Assembly (NCBI RefSeq): GCF_009389715.1
Contig: NC_052399.1
Coordinates: 22,577,146-22,641,145 of the forward strand
DNA: 64,000 nt
Direction of reading: 5' to 3'
DNA from: Phoenix dactylifera
Lineage: Eukaryota; Streptophyta; Magnoliopsida; Arecales; Arecaceae
Part shown: piece by piece, positions 12,355 to 56,100 of the stretch
Layout of the letters: every line of letters starts with the position of its first letter
Numbering within the stretch: position 1 is the stretch's first letter
Position numbers and translations under genes: made by a program
Notes under the pieces: model-generated
Databases searched by the model: none
What the model was told of the DNA's origin: nothing
Seen by the model: the letters and a program-made list of their open reading frames with translations, nothing else

Positions 12355-13409
12355 TAGGGCTGTCAACAGGCCGAGTTGCTCGGGCTCGGCTTGGGCCCGG
12401 CTCGAGCTCGGCTCGTTAGTCAAACGAGCCCGAGTCCAAAATGAAGCCCGTTTAAATCCGAGCCCGAGTAGCTCACGAGCCCGAACAAGCCCAAATGAGG
12501 GCTCAATTTAATTAACAATTTAATTGGGTTCCAATTAAACTTGGACGCAAACCAATTAAATTTTATTTAGCTTAATCAATTTAAATCCCAATCTGATTGA
12601 ACCCAATTGGATTTAGATCAGACCCAATCCGAGCTAACCTAAATTCATTTAATTTTTTTAAATCGAATTGGATTGGTTTGGGTTCGGACTCAACCCGTTA
12701 ACCCGAACCCAACCTGTTAACCTTTTTTTTCTTTTAATCTCTTCTTTTTTCTTTTGGTTTCTCCAGAGTCCAGAACCTTCCGTCTTTCCCTGCTTCCAAG
12801 TTCCAACCCCTCCTTTCTTCTTCGTTCTCCTCGCCGGCTCGCCCCCAAGCCTGAAGCTGATGCCCCCCTCCCCTCCGACGACGGCTATGACGAGGACGAC
12901 GACGATGATGATGCCGTACACCCGATTCCAGCTCTCCGAGAAGCTCCGCCGCCTCCTCCTCTCCCTTCTCCGCCCCCGATGACGACGCCGTACACGGTAT
13001 ACTCGATTCAGCTCTCCCTTCTCCTCTCCAGACTCCGGCTCTCCCTTCTCCGCCCTCGATGACGACGCCGTACTCCCTCCCCTGTGGCCGTGCACCCGCG
13101 GCCGTGCCTGCGGCCGACGCCTGTGCCGGCAGTGCTCGTGGGTGCCCCCTTCTTTCTTCTCTTCTTCTTTTCTTTCTTTCTTTCTTTCTTTCCTTTGTTC
13201 TTCTCTCCTCCGAGCCTCTGACGAATGATGGGGATGGGGATGGGGCGGGCGCAGGCTTGAGCAAACGAGCCCGAGCCGGGCTGTACCAAGCGAGCCCGAG
13301 CTCAATACAGGGCTCGGTATCGAGCCCGAGCCCGAGCCTGGAATTTTCTAGAACGAGTCGACCCGAGCCCGCGGAGGCTTGGGCTCGGCTCGGCTCGTTG
13401 ACAACCCTA
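12355..13409. mobile_element. Non-autonomous hAT-like element, 1055 bp, GC-rich interior
   Basis: The left end TAGGGCTGTCAAC and the right end GTTGACAACCCTA are inverted repeats (12 of 13 match). The next bases on both sides are rich in GAGCCGAG/CTCGGCTCG motifs. Flanks are GTCGGCTA (12347-12354) and GTCGGCCA (13410-13417), an 8-bp target duplication with one mismatch, as hAT transposases make. No transposase is encoded. The interior goes from AT-rich (about 12480-12730) to a CT-rich, GC-rich block (about 12730-13230) with a CTTT microsatellite near 13163-13192. The boundaries come directly from the sequence; the superfamily call is inference from duplication length and TIR style. Confidence 0.85.
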
Positions 13410-13591
13410 GTCGGCCAATACGGACATGGAATAGCATTAAATGTTTCAACATGTAACCAAATTGACCTGTGATGTATGGGCTGGCTCCACTACTACCTCT
13501 GGACTCGATAAGCTCGAGTGTTAATTCTTTAGGCTACGTTTGGGAGAGTTTTTGGAGGGCCAAAAAGTACTTTCTAGCTCTCCAAAATTAT

Positions 13592-13775
13592 TTTTGAATA
13601 AAAAAAGATATTTTGTAAAAATTTCGGAAAGTTGTTTTTGCTTTTCTAGAAAGCTGAAAACAGCTTTTTGAGAGAAACTTTATTTTGGAGCTTTGCGAAA
13701 AAGCTGTTTTCAGCTTTCTAGAAAAGCAAAAACAACTTTCCGAAATTTTTACCAAATATCTTTTTTTATTCAAAA
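13592..13775. repeat. Long inverted repeat: 78-bp arms, 28-bp loop
   Basis: The arm at 13592-13669 is the reverse complement of 13698-13775, with about one mismatch (TTTTGTAAAA against TTTACCAAAT). The arms contain TTTCGGAAAGTTG, CTTTTCTAGAAAGCTG and AAACAGCTTTTT, a sequence style seen in plant foldback and MITE elements. Left of it is GGCTACGTTTGGGAGAG (about 13532). AGCTTTTTATAAAAGCTC-type sequence recurs near 14290-14330, so the hairpin may be one end of a larger element reaching to about 14370. Confidence 0.88.
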
Positions 13776-13849
13776 TGCCCATCCCGCCGCCTCTTCCTCT
13801 TCCATCCATCCCCCTCCTCTTCCTCTCCCACCCATCCTGCTCCTCTCTC

Positions 13850-44138: not shown

Positions 44139-47100
44139 ATGCCGCCAGCCCCTACTCTCTTATCTTTCTCCTCCGCCAGCCGCGCCTCCCCTCCTCTCCT
44201 CTCCTCCTACTCCAAAGACGAAAAGGGCAAGAAACCCAAACCCTTCACCCCGCCGCTCTCGCCGACCCGCCGCCTCCCCCTTCTCCTCTTCTCCGCCCTC
44301 TGCCTCCTCGTTGGCGTCGGCGGGATCGCATTCGCCGCCGTCGTCCTCCGTCGCCCTCCCAGGACCGTCACCATCTTTCGCTGCGGCCGGGCCGAGGACG
44401 CTCTCAGGACCTTCCGCTCAAAGTCCCTCGCCGGTGGCAAAGATGGCGTCGTCGCGCGGCCCAAGGTGCTCGGGTTCGTTGGGGTCCAGACGGGCTTCTC
44501 CTCGTCCGATCGCCGAGCGGCACTCCGGAGTACCTGGTTCCCTCCCGATCCGGAGGGCTTGGGAAGGTATGATTCGTAACGTCTGTTCTTCTTTGATGCT
44601 TTTGTCCTTCTCTGTTGTCTTCTTTGGCGATCTTGGATCCGAAACTCTGAAGACAGGGGTTAGATGTAGATCGAGAAAGAGGCCTGTCAAGATAGTTATA
44701 ATTGGATATGTTGGGTGATTTTTTGTTTCTATTTTAAGCACTAGGACAGCAGGCAAGCTGGCTGGAGAATGTGTTTGTTAATTTGTTTCTTCGAATATCT
44801 GCTTCTTTAAGATAGAAATTTCCGAACGAGTTAAAAATTTCTGCACTCTGGTATAGAATAAAGAGGTCAAAATAGATCAAGCCAAACTGATGAAGATGAA
44901 GCTTAGAGTGGTGGTGGATGCACGATGGTTTCTGCTCAGTTATACATAGTCATGACCTAGAAGTTCATCTGTTTTTGGTGCTATTCTAGGTTTCAATAGT
45001 GCCTTTTTCTTTTGTTTCTAGTTATTGATCTTGGATCTTGAAATCATAGAAGACAAGGATTAAATGTCGGTCAGAAAAGAGTCATCAAGATAGTTCTAAA
45101 TTACAGTCTTGGACCATCAGTAACTACTTTCTTGTGGTCAACAATGATTTTTATGGAGACTCACATTCCAGAGTGATCTATAAGTTTCTTGCACTAGAAT
45201 AGGAGGCAAAGTGAAAACATATCAATGCAAATCATTTAAGTTTGAGAGTAGCAGTGATTTCAACTAAGCCGAGGAAAATAATGACAGTGGGTTAAAATAT
45301 TGTCCATTCATTATCCCTTGGTGTCAACATTACCTGGATCATCATATTAACATTATTGGATGAGTTCGACATGTCTTGAAGTCAGTCTTGGAAGCCGTCA
45401 TGTAGGCAGTATATATAAGTTATTCTAAGCGCAGACAATGATGGGAAGGGGCCTGTGGGAAAAGCAGGAAATAGGATAACAAGCACTGATTTGGAAAGGA
45501 TCAATTAATTAATAGTTCATATATATTACTTATTTTTACTGTTTAAGTGAGTAATTTACCTATTTAGATAGTCTATCATTTGTATTTAACATTTAGTTAG
45601 TATAGATCAAGAAAATGATATATCTATACAACATGCAAAAAAAATGAAAAATTTTAATGAGCAAATAGCCAATTAAGTAACATGTCGATATTTTATTATA
45701 TGTAGTTCAATGTTAAGTAAATATTTTTTTACATGCATGTAAACCATTTGTATTCGTACAAATGCTTGATCTTTTATTCCTAGTTATCTTACTTCTTTAC
45801 ATGCATCAAAATGGGTTCCTAGCATTGATGTTAGTGTAACAGCCCAACGCAAGATTTAAAAACTCTAACTCAGTTCAGGTTTCGGTCTTTTAGATAGAGT
45901 TTCAGTTTTGACTATTTTGGCAAGTTTAACGGTTTCAACATTTTTGTTCCAAGTTTTGGAGTTTATATGTTATAATTTTTTTATTTTTTTCTAACTTTTA
46001 TAATGTCCCATATTTTCCTTATTTCTATAGTTAACTAAAATTTTCTTTAAGCATATGTCATTCTATTTCGTTTTACTAACCCATTTAAGAAAATAATCCA
46101 TCTTGGAGTATCTCGTTGGGTTTCATGTTAATAACTCATCCAAGCAAGGAAGAACCCTTTTGAGCATGTCTCATTTTATTCCATTTCAAAAAGCCATCCA
46201 AGCAAGAAAACCCATTAGAGCAGATTTGTTTTTCATTTGAATGACTTATTTAAGCAAAAAAAATCCCTATAAATAAAACCCATTTCATTTGATATTTTAT
46301 TTTCATATATCATTTTATTTTGAAAGAAGAGAAACAACTAATTTGGAAAAAAAGTGGTCTAGTGCATGAGACTTCCTTCACGGTGAGGTCTAGGAGGGAT
46401 GCAATCGTAGAGGTTGTTTTCATATTTTGAACCCGTGACATGCAGGTCACAATGGAGCAATCTTATCGTTGCGCTAGGGCTCACTCTCAAACGACTAATA
46501 TAAATAAGAAAAGAAAAAAGAATCATATGAAGATGTGATAATGTAATGCTTTTTAATTAGTAAAGGAACATCAAGATTGTGATAACAGTGCTGCCAAAAC
46601 TAATATAAACTAGATCATTAAATCCTTAGATAAATATGATATCCAATAATATTGCAAAACTTTAGAAATATTAGCAAGCATTAAAGATATATGAATGGAA
46701 TAGAAGATAAAATATCAGTTTCCATTGGTTTCATACAAAAACCAGCCAAAAATTGGACCAAAACTTGCCAAGACTGCCGAATTCCATTAGTTTCGGTCAA
46801 TTTCGGACTGATTCGTTTCGGTTCAAACTTCAAACCTTGCTCGATGTGTGGATAAATTTGACACAACCTGAGTGTATCATGGCCAATAAATAGGGTCGGA
46901 AATAGGCTGGCTTGGCTAAAATAACACCCCTACCCAAGCTCAACCTCAAAAAAAAATTTTGGACTTCAAGCCAGGCCTAAGCTCAAAATAGTTATGAATG
47001 GTTTGGCTGACTAGGGCTCAAGCCTAGCTGGAAGACCATATGGGCCCTGACTAAAATGATCCAGTGTGCTAGAAGCGGGGTGGAGTCGGGCATCCATGGT

Positions 47101-50100
47101 GAGAGAGGAGGAGAGAGAAGGAGGCCCATGGGGGAGTGGACGACAGCGGATGAGTAGGATAGCAGACAAGCAGGTTTTTTGGGATATCCGACCCATCCCA
47201 AACCCTAATAGGACCCATTTAGCAAAACTCTGTAAGGTTTGGGAAAGTTTGGGATTTAAAATTAAAATTCATTAGGATTTGGGATGGGTTTGGAATTTGA
47301 TCCTTGGGTACCCGCTACTCGAACCCGATTATATATAATATATATTTTTATAAAATTTTGCAAATATATATAATAGAGGGATGAGGGGATTATGGACTTA
47401 ATGTTGGTGTTATGGATTATGGTTGTTTTGAATTGAAAGTTTAATGTATTATTGATTTTTACTTGATATTAGTTTTATTCATGTCATTATGAAAAGGTCT
47501 TCCCCTTATCCCCCTCCCCCCCTCTTTTTTTTGTGTAATTCCGAGTTGGGTACCCTACTCGACCGAAATAATTTGATCCAAATAAAGATTAATGGGGGCG
47601 GGGGAGGGTTGGGTACCCAATAGATTTACCATTTTTTGATGGGATAGGTTTGGAATTTTGGGGCAAATTTTTAATCAAATTTGGAATAGGTTTGGATAGT
47701 AGGATTTTAAACAGGTTCGAATATGGGTGGGGCAAATTTTGCAGGTACCCTACCCATTGCCATTCCTACGGATGAGGTGAGAAGGATTTGGCGGTGAAGC
47801 AGTTATTGGTAGGGGGTGGACACTTTGCACAGGAAGAAGTTTGTCGGTGATAGAGAGAGAGTAGTGACCATTGGGGTAGGTTTTGGAAAACACTGGAGAT
47901 ATCTATTTAAGTTATTTGACTTAGACTTTGAGCTTGGGCTTCGAGTCGAGTTTCAGGCTTGGGCTGGCCTAAGGATAAGCCCAAACTTGGTGCAACATCT
48001 ATTCAAGTTCTAGATATGAGGCTTAGGCTTGACCTAAATCACCCCAAGCTAGGCCCAAAGCTCGACCAGAAGTTGTCCCAACTTGAGCACATCCTAACCC
48101 TAGCAATGATGGAGTGTCGTTGATGCTAAATAGTCACAGCTTTATAGCAATCTTAGAAATGATGTACACTCTTTGCGAGGTTATGTTGATAATGGGGTTT
48201 TGGAAGCTCATATGATTGACCACTTTCAAAATTACATGTCTCATTGTGTGCTTTAGTAAGTCAAAGGCTTTGGCTTGGAAAAAACCTCCAAGTGATACTC
48301 TACACCCAATCGAGAGCAACCTTGTGGCAAACAAGGGTGAAATACTTAGCTAGAACAACTAATTAGGGATTAAAGTACATAAAAGCAAAAGTGCAATCTT
48401 TTCCACATCTTATATTAGCATGACTGTTTTGTAAACAGAGTGAGAGAGATATTTGTCAGTGTTGTTTTAATCTAGTTATGATTTTACTTTGGAATCCATA
48501 GTGATGTATATTTCTTCAAAGGCATCAAAGGTGGGCTGTCTTATCTAGCACGTTATCTCGATAATAACACCTTTGATTTGAGCATATGACAAAATCATTA
48601 GTTTGGAAGAACTTGTGTTGGCCACTTAGTTAACTATTTTATGTTGCATTTGATGTTATATGTTGCCACTAAAAGGATTCTCAAATCATGACTTTGGAAG
48701 AACTTGTGTTGGCCACTTAGTTAACTATTTTATGTTGCATTTGATGTTATATGTTGCCACTAAAAGGATTCTCAAAGGCCATAAGACGTTTGCAACAAAA
48801 TGGATTTTTAGGCAGTAAAACATATATAGAACTACTAAAAGTCTAAAATCCAAGTCAAGAGTGATTTTGATAGATTGCATCCTGATTTATTGACAATCTC
48901 TATTTTTCCTGATGGCATCTTGATTTATTGACAATCTTTATTTTTTCCGTTCTTAAAATTTGCTCATTATTGACCGAAACTTGTGCATGATATGAGCTAA
49001 GCTTTCTCAGTCGGAGATGCAAGCATTAACTTGTGGCCACATTGATTATTATCATGTGAGCAAGCCGATGATTACTGCTCCAAGATTGATGGATGGAGTG
49101 CTTGTCTTAATCTCTAGTTTGTAGTCTATGTAAAGAGAACTCTTTTAGTTAGGTGGATTTGGAGTTCAGGAAATGAAAATGAATTTGTGAGGAACCAAAT
49201 TAATGGAAGATAAAGCAATGATCAAAAGAAATAAATGAAGTTCTTTGGATGATCTTATTGGTGAGGGAAGAATTTGTTCGTGATGTGGGTTGAAAACTTT
49301 TGTTTGGTTATGAATCACAATTTGGATGGAATAAGAAATTAAATTCTCATTTGATTTGTTTTATGCACATGTTATATCATAAGCTCTTGCTTCCATGATT
49401 TAAAAAGTTGGTTTCAATTTTGGCTGGACAAAATTGATTTTTTGATTTCAGCTGTTTCAGTGGTTTCACCTTTGTTGTTTGCATCTTCACTTAAAAATTG
49501 AAAAAACTAAAAACTTTTAACAAAATTGAAGAACAAATAAAGAATGGTGGAAAAAAAATCAGTCAACAAGAATATACTAGACTATTTGAGAAAAAATATA
49601 TTACTTTTACATTGAAACAACTGGAAAATTATCTTTTGAAAAGAGTGCACTATATCATTCACCATCTAGCATATGCAAAATGTAAATGTTTATGAAATTT
49701 GAGCTCTGGAATAGTTGAACCTATGTAAAGAAATAATAATAATAATTTTAATTTCTTTGGAATCTAATATCACAATGCTTCCTTGTTTCAAAACCTGCCA
49801 AATTCAAGTTTAGCATGGAGAAGATTATTCCGAACATTTAAAAATGTGGGAAAATGCAGATAATCTGAATTAACAGCCTATATATGTATTATAAGTTAGT
49901 TTGGACCAAAACTTCGTTTCGTATCAGTTTTGGCATAAAACAAAAGGTTTTGGTTTTGGTTTTGGTTTTGGTTTTGGAGTTTTGAGTGAAACTTCAAATG
50001 GACCTTGATTGGTACTAATATCTGTTGCCCGAGTTGGCAGCAGGTGCAGGGGCATGGATGCAAGGGAAGCAGATCTTCTGAAAACACTTAGGAAACAGGT

Positions 50101-53100
50101 GGACTGCAAGTTTTGGGGGATTTTTAGTGACTTTTAGATAGAAGTTCCCTGCTACTAAGCTAGCAAGGTACTAACCCATGGATGTTGTTGTGTAAATATT
50201 GATGTGGTAGGGGACGGGACAGGGAGGGTAGTACTTGACAGTAGAGATGGTGAGAAAATTAGGACTACTTTACCATGGCATGTTAAGATTCTGAGTAATT
50301 TTGATAGATTAATTGCCATTATAACTTTTTCTTCTTGAAGCAATAATTAGTCTTTTGAGATTACTTAAATATTTGCTAGCGTCGTCATAATAGTCTTAAA
50401 TATTTGCTATCTTCATCATAATAGTTATAGTGAAAATCTTTAGAATACAATTGTATGAATGAAGCAAGCAATTACTATACACATTAACAAATTCCTTTCA
50501 AAAAAATTTCTCTTATCATTTACAGCTACAACTTTTTGAAATTCTCACTTCAAATTGAATAAGTCCATATGTGAATTGGCGAAAAGATAAATAAATCAAA
50601 TCCATATTATATATTAACTTGCTTGTGAGTTGTGACGGATTTGGGTTGTAGAATGTTTGCATTCAAGACTATAGTGTTTGGCTTCATTTTGGACTCAATA
50701 TAATGGTGCTTATTTGTATTCTTCGTTTCATTGCTTTCCATCTCATTAGGTAATATTGTGATGTTAGGATGTTGGTCATACGTCATACTACAAGATTGAT
50801 ATTATAAGATGCATAGCTAATACTGAATCATAGATCAACAAGGGACTATGCCAATGCATGGGCGAACTAGATAGAACCAGCAGGTTAAATACCACTTCAT
50901 ATTGTAATACATGTTATCACCCATATGAATTACTCAGACTTAGTTACCTACCGAATCATTCTACTAAAGGTGATTATTACAATCATGATAGACTTATAAG
51001 GTTTTTCTCTAGAATATCAAGCTGGTAGACAATTTTAAGCATAGAATTCAATCTTGCAATTCGAAAAATCAATTGATTTCACTTTGTTAGCTTGGAATCT
51101 CTAGAACTTCGGTACCATTGCTCTTGGTGAGCAAATTAAGATAAGACTTGGCCATTCTTCTTAGAAGAACCGCTCAAAAGAAAAGAAAATGCAAGTTCCG
51201 CAGATTACAAAAGTTATGACATCCTAAGACATTCAATGTGGAACTTTTTGTATGTCATATGATGATGTTAATCCAACTAAAATTTACCCTATCTCCCAAA
51301 TCTTAGTATAATACTGAATATGTAGCTCCAAAACCAGTAACATATAATATCAGTTATGAGATGCTCTTATGTTGTAAATAAACATGTTCAAGGACCAGAA
51401 TTCCTGCCCGGCCTTCTCAAGCTCAAAACCTTTGAACATGCCTAAGTCTGGATTTTAAGCTCGACGGCCAGGCCGAGCCTGAATATAAGCCTGCATGTTA
51501 AATGGGCCAGACTTGGATTTAGATCTGAAAGCACGGCCAAGCCCAGCATGGCTTGAATTTGTACAATACTATACATGTGACATGGAGGCTATAACCTAGC
51601 CCATAAGTGATAGGTGAACCTAGTTCTTTATTCATTAGGGAATAAAGAATGAGGTGGCTAGGGTTCCTTGGTCCACCACCTCTTTTGAACACCGAGCTGA
51701 GCTCCTCCGATGAGTCTCAACCCCACATGCTCCTCTTCTAAGTAACGAGTCAGGCTCTATCTACTCCCTTCTCCTACACTCAGCCCACAAACCCCAGCTT
51801 ACCAGAGAGACCCTGCCTTGCCAAACAGACCCCGGCATGGTGGTGGTCACCTCCAGCAAGGGCAGCGTTGGCAAGACCATCACTGCCAATGTCGGCCTCT
51901 CCCTCACCCATTTTTATTTGTCCATTGTCACCGTCGATGCTGATGTTGGCCTCTGCAACCTTGACCTCCTCGGCCTCAAGAACTGCATCAACTAAACTGT
52001 TGTCGAGGTCCTCAAAAGAGGTTGTTGCCTCTACGAGGCCGTTGTCCGTGGCTGCCCTGCCCCTCCCTCAAACTACTTTGCATCTCCAAGCCTCACTTCA
52101 AGGCCCTCACTTAGGTCGCTAACATCCTCCGGTCTCACCTCTTGGGCCACCCCGCCTCATCCTCACCAACTGCCTCTCTGCCATCCATAGCAGGTTCATC
52201 GTTGCCATTGAGAACCCTCGATATCACCACCCTTTGCAATTGCAACCTGGTCATCAGCCTCCTCAAGTCAACCACATCTGGGAGATGATGATGATCCTCT
52301 AAACTGGGTTCTAACTGATTTTGTAAGAGGATGTCAGTGCTCAACATGCAGGAAATACTTGGCCTTGACATTGCTGAGGATTCTGAGGTGATTAAGAGCA
52401 CAAATTGAAGTATCCTCTTGTCCTCAACAAGCTGCCTTTGGTGCCTAGGTTGGCATTTGAGCAGGCCACATTGAGGCTGGTCTAGCAGGACACAGTAACT
52501 GTGGTAATTGTGGAGGAGCCCAAGAAAGGACACAGATGCTCACAAGTTGTTCAATGAAATGCCATAGTGAGATAGTCTCCTAGAACATCCTGGTCGCTTT
52601 AATTTTTAAAAAATTGGAAAATAAAATAGGTTAAGGAAGCCCAAGACCCGGCCCGAAGCTCAAAGCTCGAGCCTAGGAAGTAGGCCCGAAGGATGGGCTG
52701 GGTCGGGCCCGATCCTGACTAATTTTAGTTATACCTTGGGCTAAGCCCAGCCCACCAATTGAACCGATCTAATTGTAAAGATTAAGAAGGATGAGGCTTC
52801 ATTTTCCAAATCAAGCTGAAGGGAATCCATGTGATTATTGTTAGCAAGTGGGAAGGCCAAATATTTTGAACCTATAGCTTATTATCATCTCTAAGTAATT
52901 CTATGTATTGCTTGTTATCACTCTTACATGCTGGAATTTATACTTATTTATATCTCACTAATCATCCACCATATATTTCAGCTTGGAACGTGCTACTGGA
53001 TTAGCTTTTAGATTTGTGATTGGGAGAACAAAAGATTCAAAAAAAATGGCTGATCTTCGGAAAGAGATTGACATGTACCATGACTTCATGCTTATAGATA

Positions 53101-56100
53101 TTGAAGAAGATTACATAAAGCTGCCTCAAAAGACGTGAGAGCTGGGCCTCTGTTAGTGTTTTTTCTTCGCATCATGACCAACAATGCTTGAGCTGTAATT
53201 CCTTTCTTGTTTGCTTTTTTCCCTTTTCCAGGTTAGCTTTTTTTAAGGCAGCTTTCAACCTTTTCGATGCAGACTTTTACATCAAAGCTGATGATGATAT
53301 TTATCTGAGGCCAGGTAAACTCAACTTTATTGATTCTCTTTTTTTTTGAAAATGTTCCAACAGTATAAATTATCCGCTCTTGATTTGCCAGATCGGCTTG
53401 CAACTCTTCTTGCTAAGGATCGACCCCATCGTCTCACCTACATTGGTTGCATGAAAAAGGGCCCAGTCATCACTGATCCAAAGATGAGATGGTAACTGTA
53501 ATTGTGTAGTAATTTTGTTCTGGCCTTTCAGCTGCATTGGCAAATGCTTCCGAATATATTATTTTCTACTAAACAATTTATTTTTGTTTCTTTTGGTTTC
53601 ATTAAAATCACAGGTATGAAAGTTCAGGCCATTTGATTGGAAGTGAATATTTTCTGCATGCATATGGTCCCATATATGCCCTGTCTGCTGAGGTGGTAGC
53701 TTCACTGGCAATTGCAAGAAATAATAGGTTAGTTATATCTTAATCTGTTTGCTTAAAATAATTTTATGAATTGAAATTAGAATGTTACTTTTGTTCTTCT
53801 GATTCATGTCTCTGTGTAATGGATTCAAATAATATAAATACCTAACTAGCAAGAAATAACATGCTATAGTTGAAAATATAATTATGTTATTTTTGGTCTG
53901 TATTTTATTTTCTTTTATCTCCTTCAGCCACACTCGAGGTAAGTACTGAATATAATAGATATACTGGTTCATCAAAATTTTCGTTTGTTTGTGAGGTTTA
54001 TAGCTCTACAATGATGGCATACTTGCCTTTGGATCATCAGTATAATTTCTATTGAGACTAGAGACATAAAGTTTTGAGAGTTTCTGCTAAAATAATTTTC
54101 TGGAAGCTGTAGGTGAATGCCTATTCTGAGGTAATAAGGCAGCTTGTTAGGGGTATGATATACTTAGGTTTATACCTTCGGGGTTTGCCAGCTTTATTAA
54201 AAAGAAACACAGAAACATGGTGCATCTTCGTGCTATATCATCCCTATTCTTTGTGCTAGAGACACAACTTCTCAAATACATGCAAAGCGGGATAAGAATT
54301 TTTTTTCTTACTTCATATACATTATGCATTCAGCTACACCTCTTCAAACAAACTATTAGAAGTGGATATCCATGATGTATCAATTTGTAACTAAATTAGA
54401 TAGTGATCGCTGACTGATGTGTTTCATTAGCTTGGAGATGAGAAAACATATGGCTTCATCTAGCTGTTAAGTATTATTGCGACTAAGTTGCATTAAAGCT
54501 ATATTTTGCAACTGAATTATATTAAAAGTATAAATGAAATTTACTTGCATGAAGTTGTAGCTGGAATAGTACCATATCCACGTGTGAATTGGAATAAAAA
54601 TTAGCTGTCCTATAAGATGGAGAGGAAGTAAGAGTGCCCAAGAAAGTTTCACTAAAGATATCATATACGATAAGCTGAGTTGATGGTGCCATTCTTTATG
54701 CATTTTTTTGTTTCCTAAATTTAAACAGGTTAGGGAAGTTAGGGATATGGATGGATCTGCAAGTGGCATGCAAATTAGAAAACTTGGTAGTGTTAAAGAC
54801 CTTTCTTAAACATGGTGGAGCTTCTCCATCGCTATGTAGTATTGCTTTCCCCAAGAGGACCTATGGAAAGGCTTGTAAGTAAATTAGGTTCAAGTTGCGT
54901 CAAGGATGACATGAAGCACATCCAGAATTTGAATTCTTGGGCCTCCTGACCCAACCCAGCAATCCAAAATGGCAAATTCAACCTTGCCAAGAACTGGATA
55001 TTTGTCTAGATAACCTAATTAGATTGATCCAACAATCTTAAATAGCAATGGGTTGCCAAAGGCTATATCCTCAAAAAACTACAAGAAAACTCCACAAAGC
55101 AAAGCATAGAGACTTAGCGCAAGGCTCAGTGATGCTTTTGTTTAGTCCCACGACACCTAGAGAGACAAGTGACTAGCGGAAAAAATAAAAGAGGATAGAG
55201 GTTGAGAGGAATGGGAGAATAAAAAAATACATAAAGAATGGGATTTAGGTGGGAGTTTGTACAATCCATTGGAAAGGGGAAGGCCATTGGGGGGATCAAA
55301 TTAATGAAAGGGAAAGTTAAGGAAGCGAACAGGTGGGGAGGCTCTCTTTTATCTTTTATTGGTATGACCAGGCTTTGTCTTTAGTTGGTTTTATATGTGC
55401 TAAGTAAATGGCCACATGTTAATGGTACCTTTAAATTAAGAAAAGAATTGTATGAAGGAAACAAAATTTCATGGAAAGCAATTAAAAAAAGGAGGGGGGG
55501 AGGAGGATTTCTAGATCATGGAGTGGAGGGCATGGTCCTAATCAAAAGATCGCAATCCCTAGGCATCTTCAGGTTAGACCCTTTGACTTCCTAGCGGATA
55601 GACTTGCCAAACTAGTTTGAAGGCGGATTCTACTTGGTGATGTATACTGGAAGCTTCCTTGAATTTGTTGGCCCTTGAAAACTCCTCTTTATTGCTCATA
55701 TTCAAGGCTTGGATATTAGAGATCCATTTGTCATGTTACTTCCATATTCTTATCAACAAACCAATCCTCAAAACAAATTTTGAAGAACTGATAGAAAGTT
55801 TCTTAGAGATTGAAGGGGGAGATAGTCAAAATTGGGAGATAGACTTGCCAACTAGTTTTATAAGTGTTTCATTCTCCCTTCTCCCATTACTAAGTGAAGA
55901 GGTTATTTTCTAAGAGTTAGAAGTTTATTTAACTCTCCTCTAAGGGCAAAATAGTCATTAAACCCAAACCTGTTAGTAAAGTAACATACTTAGGGAATAA
56001 ACAAGGAATATTCAGTTCAAGACAGGTTTCATTAACGTGTGGGACTTATATGCAAAGGGTTATAGATTGTGGGATTAATATGCAAATACAAAAGATTCTG

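Follow-up and report, generated by a model that had tools for sequence, protein, structure and literature searches.

Rice Pack-MULEs, in work attributed to Jiang et al. in 2004, reportedly capture gene fragments and join them chimerically between inverted ends. Pack-MULEs belong to the Mutator superfamily and have longer ends and 9-bp duplications, unlike the palm element described here. The two are alike in capture and chimeric joining but differ in superfamily. Pack-TYPE elements of maize and rice are described by Gisby and Catoni (2022); among them, Pack-hAT elements have 8-bp duplications and cargo of several loci (PMC8903248). In grapevine, class II elements carry transduplicated gene fragments, including PPR in a CACTA family (PMC2528002). 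A survey of largely open-access literature returned work on gene capture, among others in rice, maize and grapevine, with nothing on the present family or on capture of minD. Searches of the literature for MinD pseudogenes with transposons, or for hAT captures in date palm, gave nothing relevant.

We analysed a 64-kb stretch of date palm DNA (the window). We conclude, with a probability of about 0.92, that positions 51379–52771 are an old, immobile and non-autonomous hAT-like element of the Pack-hAT kind, carrying fragments of host genes. The element shares with the Pack-hAT of maize and rice (PMC8903248) its non-autonomous nature, terminal inverted repeats, an 8-bp duplication and captured coding DNA. 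Cargo from multiple loci, and related ends with varying interiors, are also shared. The palm element differs in its 12-bp ends and in its minD and PPR cargo, apparently from a pseudogene. The grapevine elements are likewise DNA transposons with host gene fragments, including PPR. However, the grapevine PPR fragment belongs to a CACTA element and lies opposite to the transposase orientation (PMC2528002), whereas the palm PPR fragment is in a hAT-like element and joined to minD. The Pack-hAT phenomenon itself is known (PMC8903248), and our data support the minD–PPR element as a clean new example. It leaves understanding of the capture mechanism unchanged. What is documented, by a second copy and by relatives with swapped cargo, is a gene-capturing hAT-like family in a palm genome. 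The features in the window are as follows.

44139–44566, + strand: predicted host exon 1, galactosyltransferase N-terminal part; no Galactosyl_T match on this exon alone
44567–52981, + strand: predicted host intron 1, about 8.4 kb, GT...AG, from the joined reading frame; holds the element in sense
51371–51378, no strand: left target-site duplication GTTGTAAA, matching the right copy at 7/8 positions
51379–52771, + strand: probable hAT-like element of the Pack-TYPE kind, non-autonomous and 1393 bp long; ends TAAACATGTTCA / TAGATCGGTTCA
51379–51710, + strand: left subterminal family region; its block at 51556–51708 is common to the C4 and C436 elements
51682–52534, + strand: minD pseudogene, N-terminal region to EEPKK (52513–52527)
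52535–52598, + strand: PPR gene fragment, PLS type, with one frame break and one stop
52599–52771, + strand: right subterminal region, GGCCC/AAGCTC-rich and repeated in the genome (at least 31 matches to 52500–52790, self included)
52772–52779, no strand: right target-site duplication ATTGTAAA, matching the left copy at 7/8 positions
52982–53134, + strand: predicted host exon 2, 153 bp; PF01762 Galactosyl_T, 1.2e-08, over the cut-off

Cargo and host intron

The first-pass annotation described a minD pseudogene fused to a PPR-like fragment at 51710–52602. That interval covers the cargo but misses the ends of the element. GC content is 0.44–0.57 across 51400–52799, compared with about 0.30–0.39 in the flanking kilobase on either side. 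The GGCCC/AAGCTC-rich flanks that the annotation mentioned are present in the sequence.

The minD part was examined by frame-aware alignment of 51379–52771 with MinD1, using as query what we take to be the Arabidopsis protein. The alignment spans 268 residues, 141 of them identical, and runs from the transit-peptide region to EEPKK through 3 in-frame stops and 8 frame changes. Its score of 439 compares with a mean of 41 and a maximum of 59 for 60 dinucleotide shuffles, and with 45.5 for the reverse strand. Alignment is weak over the transit-peptide stretch, from 51682 to about 51780. The MinD blocks of the first-pass annotation, broken by stops and frame changes and ending in EEPKK, are recovered in this alignment. 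We also scored six of 80 fetched bacterial MinD loci against the same interval. Five cyanobacterial sequences gave 182.5–202.5 and one enterobacterial sequence gave 119. Since plant MinD1 scores far higher, the minD piece is of plant type. Consistent with a fragment, the N-terminal minD ORF matches TIGR01968 minD_bact (8.3e-12) with 45 bits, under the whole-protein cut-off of 212.9. The same ORF matches solved MinD-family proteins (best 1e-08). Given its stops and frame changes, the minD part makes no MinD protein. For annotation, minD and PPR matches in 51379–52771 are not genes.

PPR sequence had been claimed within a few bases of minD, and it begins 7 nt past EEPKK in another frame. The piece is about 64 nt long (52535–52598) and reads SEIVS*NILVA after its frame break. 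No other place in the 64 kb scores as high for PPR: the piece reaches 57, the next best place 40, and the maximum for three shuffled windows is 40.5. When breaks were written as X and the piece was compared with solved structures using phmmer, two designed PPR proteins were matched (3.6e-9 and 2.1e-8). These are whole-chain values summed over several repeats, and the best single-repeat i-Evalue is 3.3. Pfam gave no match for three readings of the 22–23-residue piece.

Within host intron 1, the element lies towards the 3' end and in the same orientation as the host gene, which is presumably of GT31 type (beta-1,3-galactosyltransferase). Host exons 1 and 2 join in frame across the GT–AG intron. 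Three later exon pieces match PF01762 weakly, below the cut-off (0.0056, 0.1 and 0.019). A sense position within an intron of a glycosyltransferase gene, as first proposed, is borne out by the joined reading frame and the predicted exons. Most likely, the element is inert sequence that would be spliced out with the intron. A regulatory role for the captured stretch, in which a sense intron transcript would affect minD through small RNAs or as a decoy, is very improbable. It would be helped by the sense orientation within the intron and by a 22-nt exact match to the intact minD on C17 (52411–52432). A regulatory role has been suggested for an antisense PPR capture in the grapevine CACTA family (PMC2528002). 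However, a sense insertion yields no antisense strand directly. The rest of the minD part has diverged, with 76% identity to C17 over 699 sites, and the longest exact match to the C18 gene copy is 17 nt.

A terminal-repeat family with varied cargo

Within the window, the two ends of the element match each other at 8/12 positions. Alone, the best pair of termini and duplications (51379/52771) is not significant, as 5/60 shuffled flanks do equally well. Hence, the ends were fixed by comparison with the family. A self-search of the 64-kb window gave no further copies, returning only a short inverted match inside the element and a 19-nt match at chance level. A fixed-pattern scan of the window for the terminus gave 21 matches with 22.3 expected.

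Genome queries with the ends only gave at least 31 matches for the right end and at least 9 for the left end, self included. We compared 18 loci; L098 and L134 are one place among these, and C436 and C205 were counted apart. Both ends match at 11 loci, the right end only at five, and the minD part only at two (C22 and C31). In 10 of the 11 loci with both ends, homology starts at 51371–51379; the exception, L132, starts at 51404. Homology ends at 52745–52777 in all 11. Left-end identity is 58% inside and 30% outside the element (55 pairs from 11 elements, including that in the window). For the right end, identity is 50% inside and 29% outside (28 pairs from eight clear-ended elements, omitting L133, L134 and L140). 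L090 and L132 are in neither count. The 12-bp family consensus, TAGACCTGTTCA, is found at both ends.

Target duplications were scored in register for 11 elements, with 7, 8, 6, 5, 6, 0, 5, 7, 7, 7 and 6 of 8 positions matching. The match is 8/8 at C436/C205, 7/8 in the window and at C10, C12 and C15, 5/8 at C1 and C9, 0/8 at C4 and 5–6/8 in the rest. In a control of 110 swapped pairs the mean was 2.9 and the maximum 6, with 12 pairs reaching at least 5. The counts are biased, as ends were chosen partly by this match, and serve as supporting evidence only.

A hAT assignment is suggested by the nature of the ends and by the 8-bp duplication. The 12-bp ends read TAGAC and depart from the TAGNG usual at hAT ends. 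A genome search for the extended left terminus, allowing no more than one mismatch, gave 58 places, and the reversed pattern gave none. The diverged end in the window is not among the 58. No Dimer_Tnp_hAT domain (PF05699) was seen within 35 kb of any of these termini among the 150 of 1658 candidates scored. Transposition would have occurred in trans, by a hAT transposase from elsewhere. The terminus motif alone is no mark of a complete member. Of seven places with a perfect motif, five were read; a second end is clear at one of them and possible at another. These are a 392-bp element at C3 (L144; terminal match 11/12, duplication 5/8) and a possible 503-bp element at C7 (L145; terminal match 10/12, duplication 4/8). 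The other three places read gave no clear second end.

Between similar ends, the interiors vary. The 1234-bp element at C9 (L129, C9:2374500-2379000) carries a P-class PPR fragment (PF13041 PPR_2, 1.2e-15). At C15, a 1011-bp element (L138, C15:5962000-5967000) carries a probable PMR5N fragment (trichome birefringence-like; 7.6e-05), with 23.4 bits, below the Pfam cut-off of 29.2. The elements at C8 (548 bp) and C12 (517 bp) have little between their ends. The C4 element has both subterminal regions, including the 51556–51708 block, with neither minD nor PPR detected. One C4 reading gave matches below the cut-off to RVT_3 (0.0027) and DUF6166 (0.012); the other C4 and C10 readings gave no Pfam match.

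The first-pass annotation likened the flanks of the chimera to hAT-like ends elsewhere in the window. This likeness did not hold for the place checked, 12355–13409, which has a different terminal-repeat family. That place is a second hAT-like element of 1055 bp, with ends TAGGGCTGTCAAC / TAGGGTTGTCAAC and target duplication GTCGGCTA/GTCGGCCA. Its subterminal regions are GGCCC/GAGCCCG-rich and resemble those of the 51379–52771 element in style only. Separately, 13590–13780 holds a MITE-like sequence near GGCTACGTTTGG, in which AGAAAGCTGAAAACAGC... and its inverse form a long, imperfect palindrome.

A second copy of the chimera

We searched the palm's own genome (773 Mb, 2391 contigs) with 51600–52700 and obtained 17 matches. 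On C436 and C205, the 5' part is found together with the minD part and the PPR-region stretch in one arrangement. The two are 98.6% identical over 5862 sites with the same 8-mer at both ends, and we count them as a single locus. Over 51376–52752, the C436 copy aligns collinearly with the window apart from two inserts in its minD part, of about 0.75 kb and about 3.85 kb. The larger insert (L089 2138-5974) has direct repeats of about 0.4 kb that are 82–87% identical, and is like an old LTR retroelement. The C436 element ends in TCAACCTGGCCA and TAGACCTGCCCA, and its target duplication, CTTTCAAA, matches at 8/8 positions. Its PPR stretch is more decayed than that in the window. With a PPR scan score of 41.5, near the level of shuffled windows, the stretch was recognised by alignment to the window. 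Of 513 comparable sites, 64 set both the window and C436 apart from the two gene copies, and at 56 of these the window and C436 share the same base.

It had been proposed that multiple copies with shared ends would mark a mobile element. The C436/C205 locus provides such a copy, with both ends, minD, PPR and an 8/8 duplication. Rather than a single-copy locus with minD homology only and no PPR match, we find a second copy and a PPR stretch. Consistent with this, the proposal that the chimera arose by Pack-type gene capture is supported by the second copy and by the relatives with other cargo.

A plain retro-copied minD pseudogene could instead have landed beside a PPR fragment and GGCCC-rich repeats. 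The minD gene on C17 is a single open frame, so missing introns do not speak against a retro-copy. In addition, minD pseudogenes with no family-end match occur at C5/C757, C22 and C31. However, the ends, minD, PPR and right end recur together at C436/C205 with their own 8-bp duplication, and the sequence between the minD and PPR parts contains no poly-A tract. For the whole chimera we regard a plain retro-copy as exceedingly unlikely, and it is refuted by the second copy. Before its capture, the minD pseudogene itself may well have originated by retro-copying.

Kimura distances between the window and the C436 pieces are 0.32, 0.29 and 0.26, and transitions are about twice as frequent as transversions. 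The palm substitution rate is about 2.6e-9 per site per year. With this rate, the split between the window and C436 copies is put roughly at fifty million years, a figure that ignores methylation-driven decay. At such distances (0.26–0.32) decayed flanks could be missed. This leaves some room for one old segmental or ectopic duplication having spread the chimera, with the hAT-like ends as older neighbours. We consider that scenario highly improbable. Homology with the window stops at the ends, the two sites carry different flanking 8-mers and other family members have similar ends with different interiors. The different 8-mers, and homology stopping at the ends, point to two insertions of one chimera unit.

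Origin of the captured minD and order of capture

Two gene copies of minD served for comparison. That on C17 is intact and encodes 326 aa in its single frame. The copy on C18 (L094, C18:6616000-6620500) is near-intact; its transit region, which is poorly conserved, shows three apparent frame breaks that may be decay, mis-assembly or an effect of the alignment. Further minD pseudogenes, with no family-end match as far as seen, lie at L091 (C5:1149000-1153000), L092 (C757), L095 (C22) and L096 (C31). Two minD-like pieces were left out of the comparison: that at C31 is without the two larger deletions of the window and C5, and that at C22 does not extend to them.

The C5 and C757 pseudogenes are near-identical. 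Relative to both genes, they have five deletions in common with the window minD, identically placed and 24, 10, 12, 1 and 1 nt long. A further deletion is common to C5/C757 (24 nt) and the window (26 nt). C5/C757 also carries private deletions, retains the minD C-terminus absent from the chimera and shows no family ends. In C436, gaps corresponding to the two larger deletions appear in the protein alignment, whereas the DNA alignment does not resolve the first; the places of the 10- and 12-nt deletions lie outside the aligned C436 pieces. The window and C5 have 457 comparable sites; at 45 of them neither matches the genes, and 32 of these carry the same base in both. For all five sequences (314 sites), 10 derived bases are shared by the window and C436 but not C5, compared with 3 shared by the window and C5 only. 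From these shared derived bases, the window copy seems to be most closely related to C436, with C5 apparently having branched off before the PPR fusion. C5 itself may once have lain in an element. Because the captured minD has at least five deletions in common with the C5/C757 pseudogene, which lies outside any such element, it was probably already dead at capture. The source of the minD part would then be a pseudogene, not a working gene. Such shared deletions speak for something less often inferred, the uptake by a transposon of a gene copy that was no longer alive.

We infer that PPR was captured first and minD second. A PPR scrap would have joined the right end of the element, and a broken minD pseudogene would then have been captured to its left. 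The minD–PPR unit would have been mobilised in trans by a hAT transposase from elsewhere, landing at least twice: in intron 1 of the host gene and at the C436/C205 locus. As a whole, a broader account seems improbable to us. In it, the hAT-like family would hold two subterminal regions and swap interior pieces stepwise, with one cargo from a dead gene; capture order would be readable from relatives, and the 22-nt stretch would be usable by small RNAs.

The C1 element bears on the order of capture. It has the PPR and right-end stretch of the chimera, and its PPR reaches further upstream (SKCNGLANARKLLDEIPQRD) than that of the chimera. Possibly, C1 lost minD rather than predating the capture of minD, and its diverged right end and weak target duplication (ATCTTGTG/ATCCCATG) leave room for this. 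We consider such a loss the less likely reading. No minD is detectable in C1, where the score of 38.5 is within the shuffle range. Moreover, C1 keeps extra upstream PPR (SKCNGLANARKLL...) relative to the chimera, as expected if minD later cut in.
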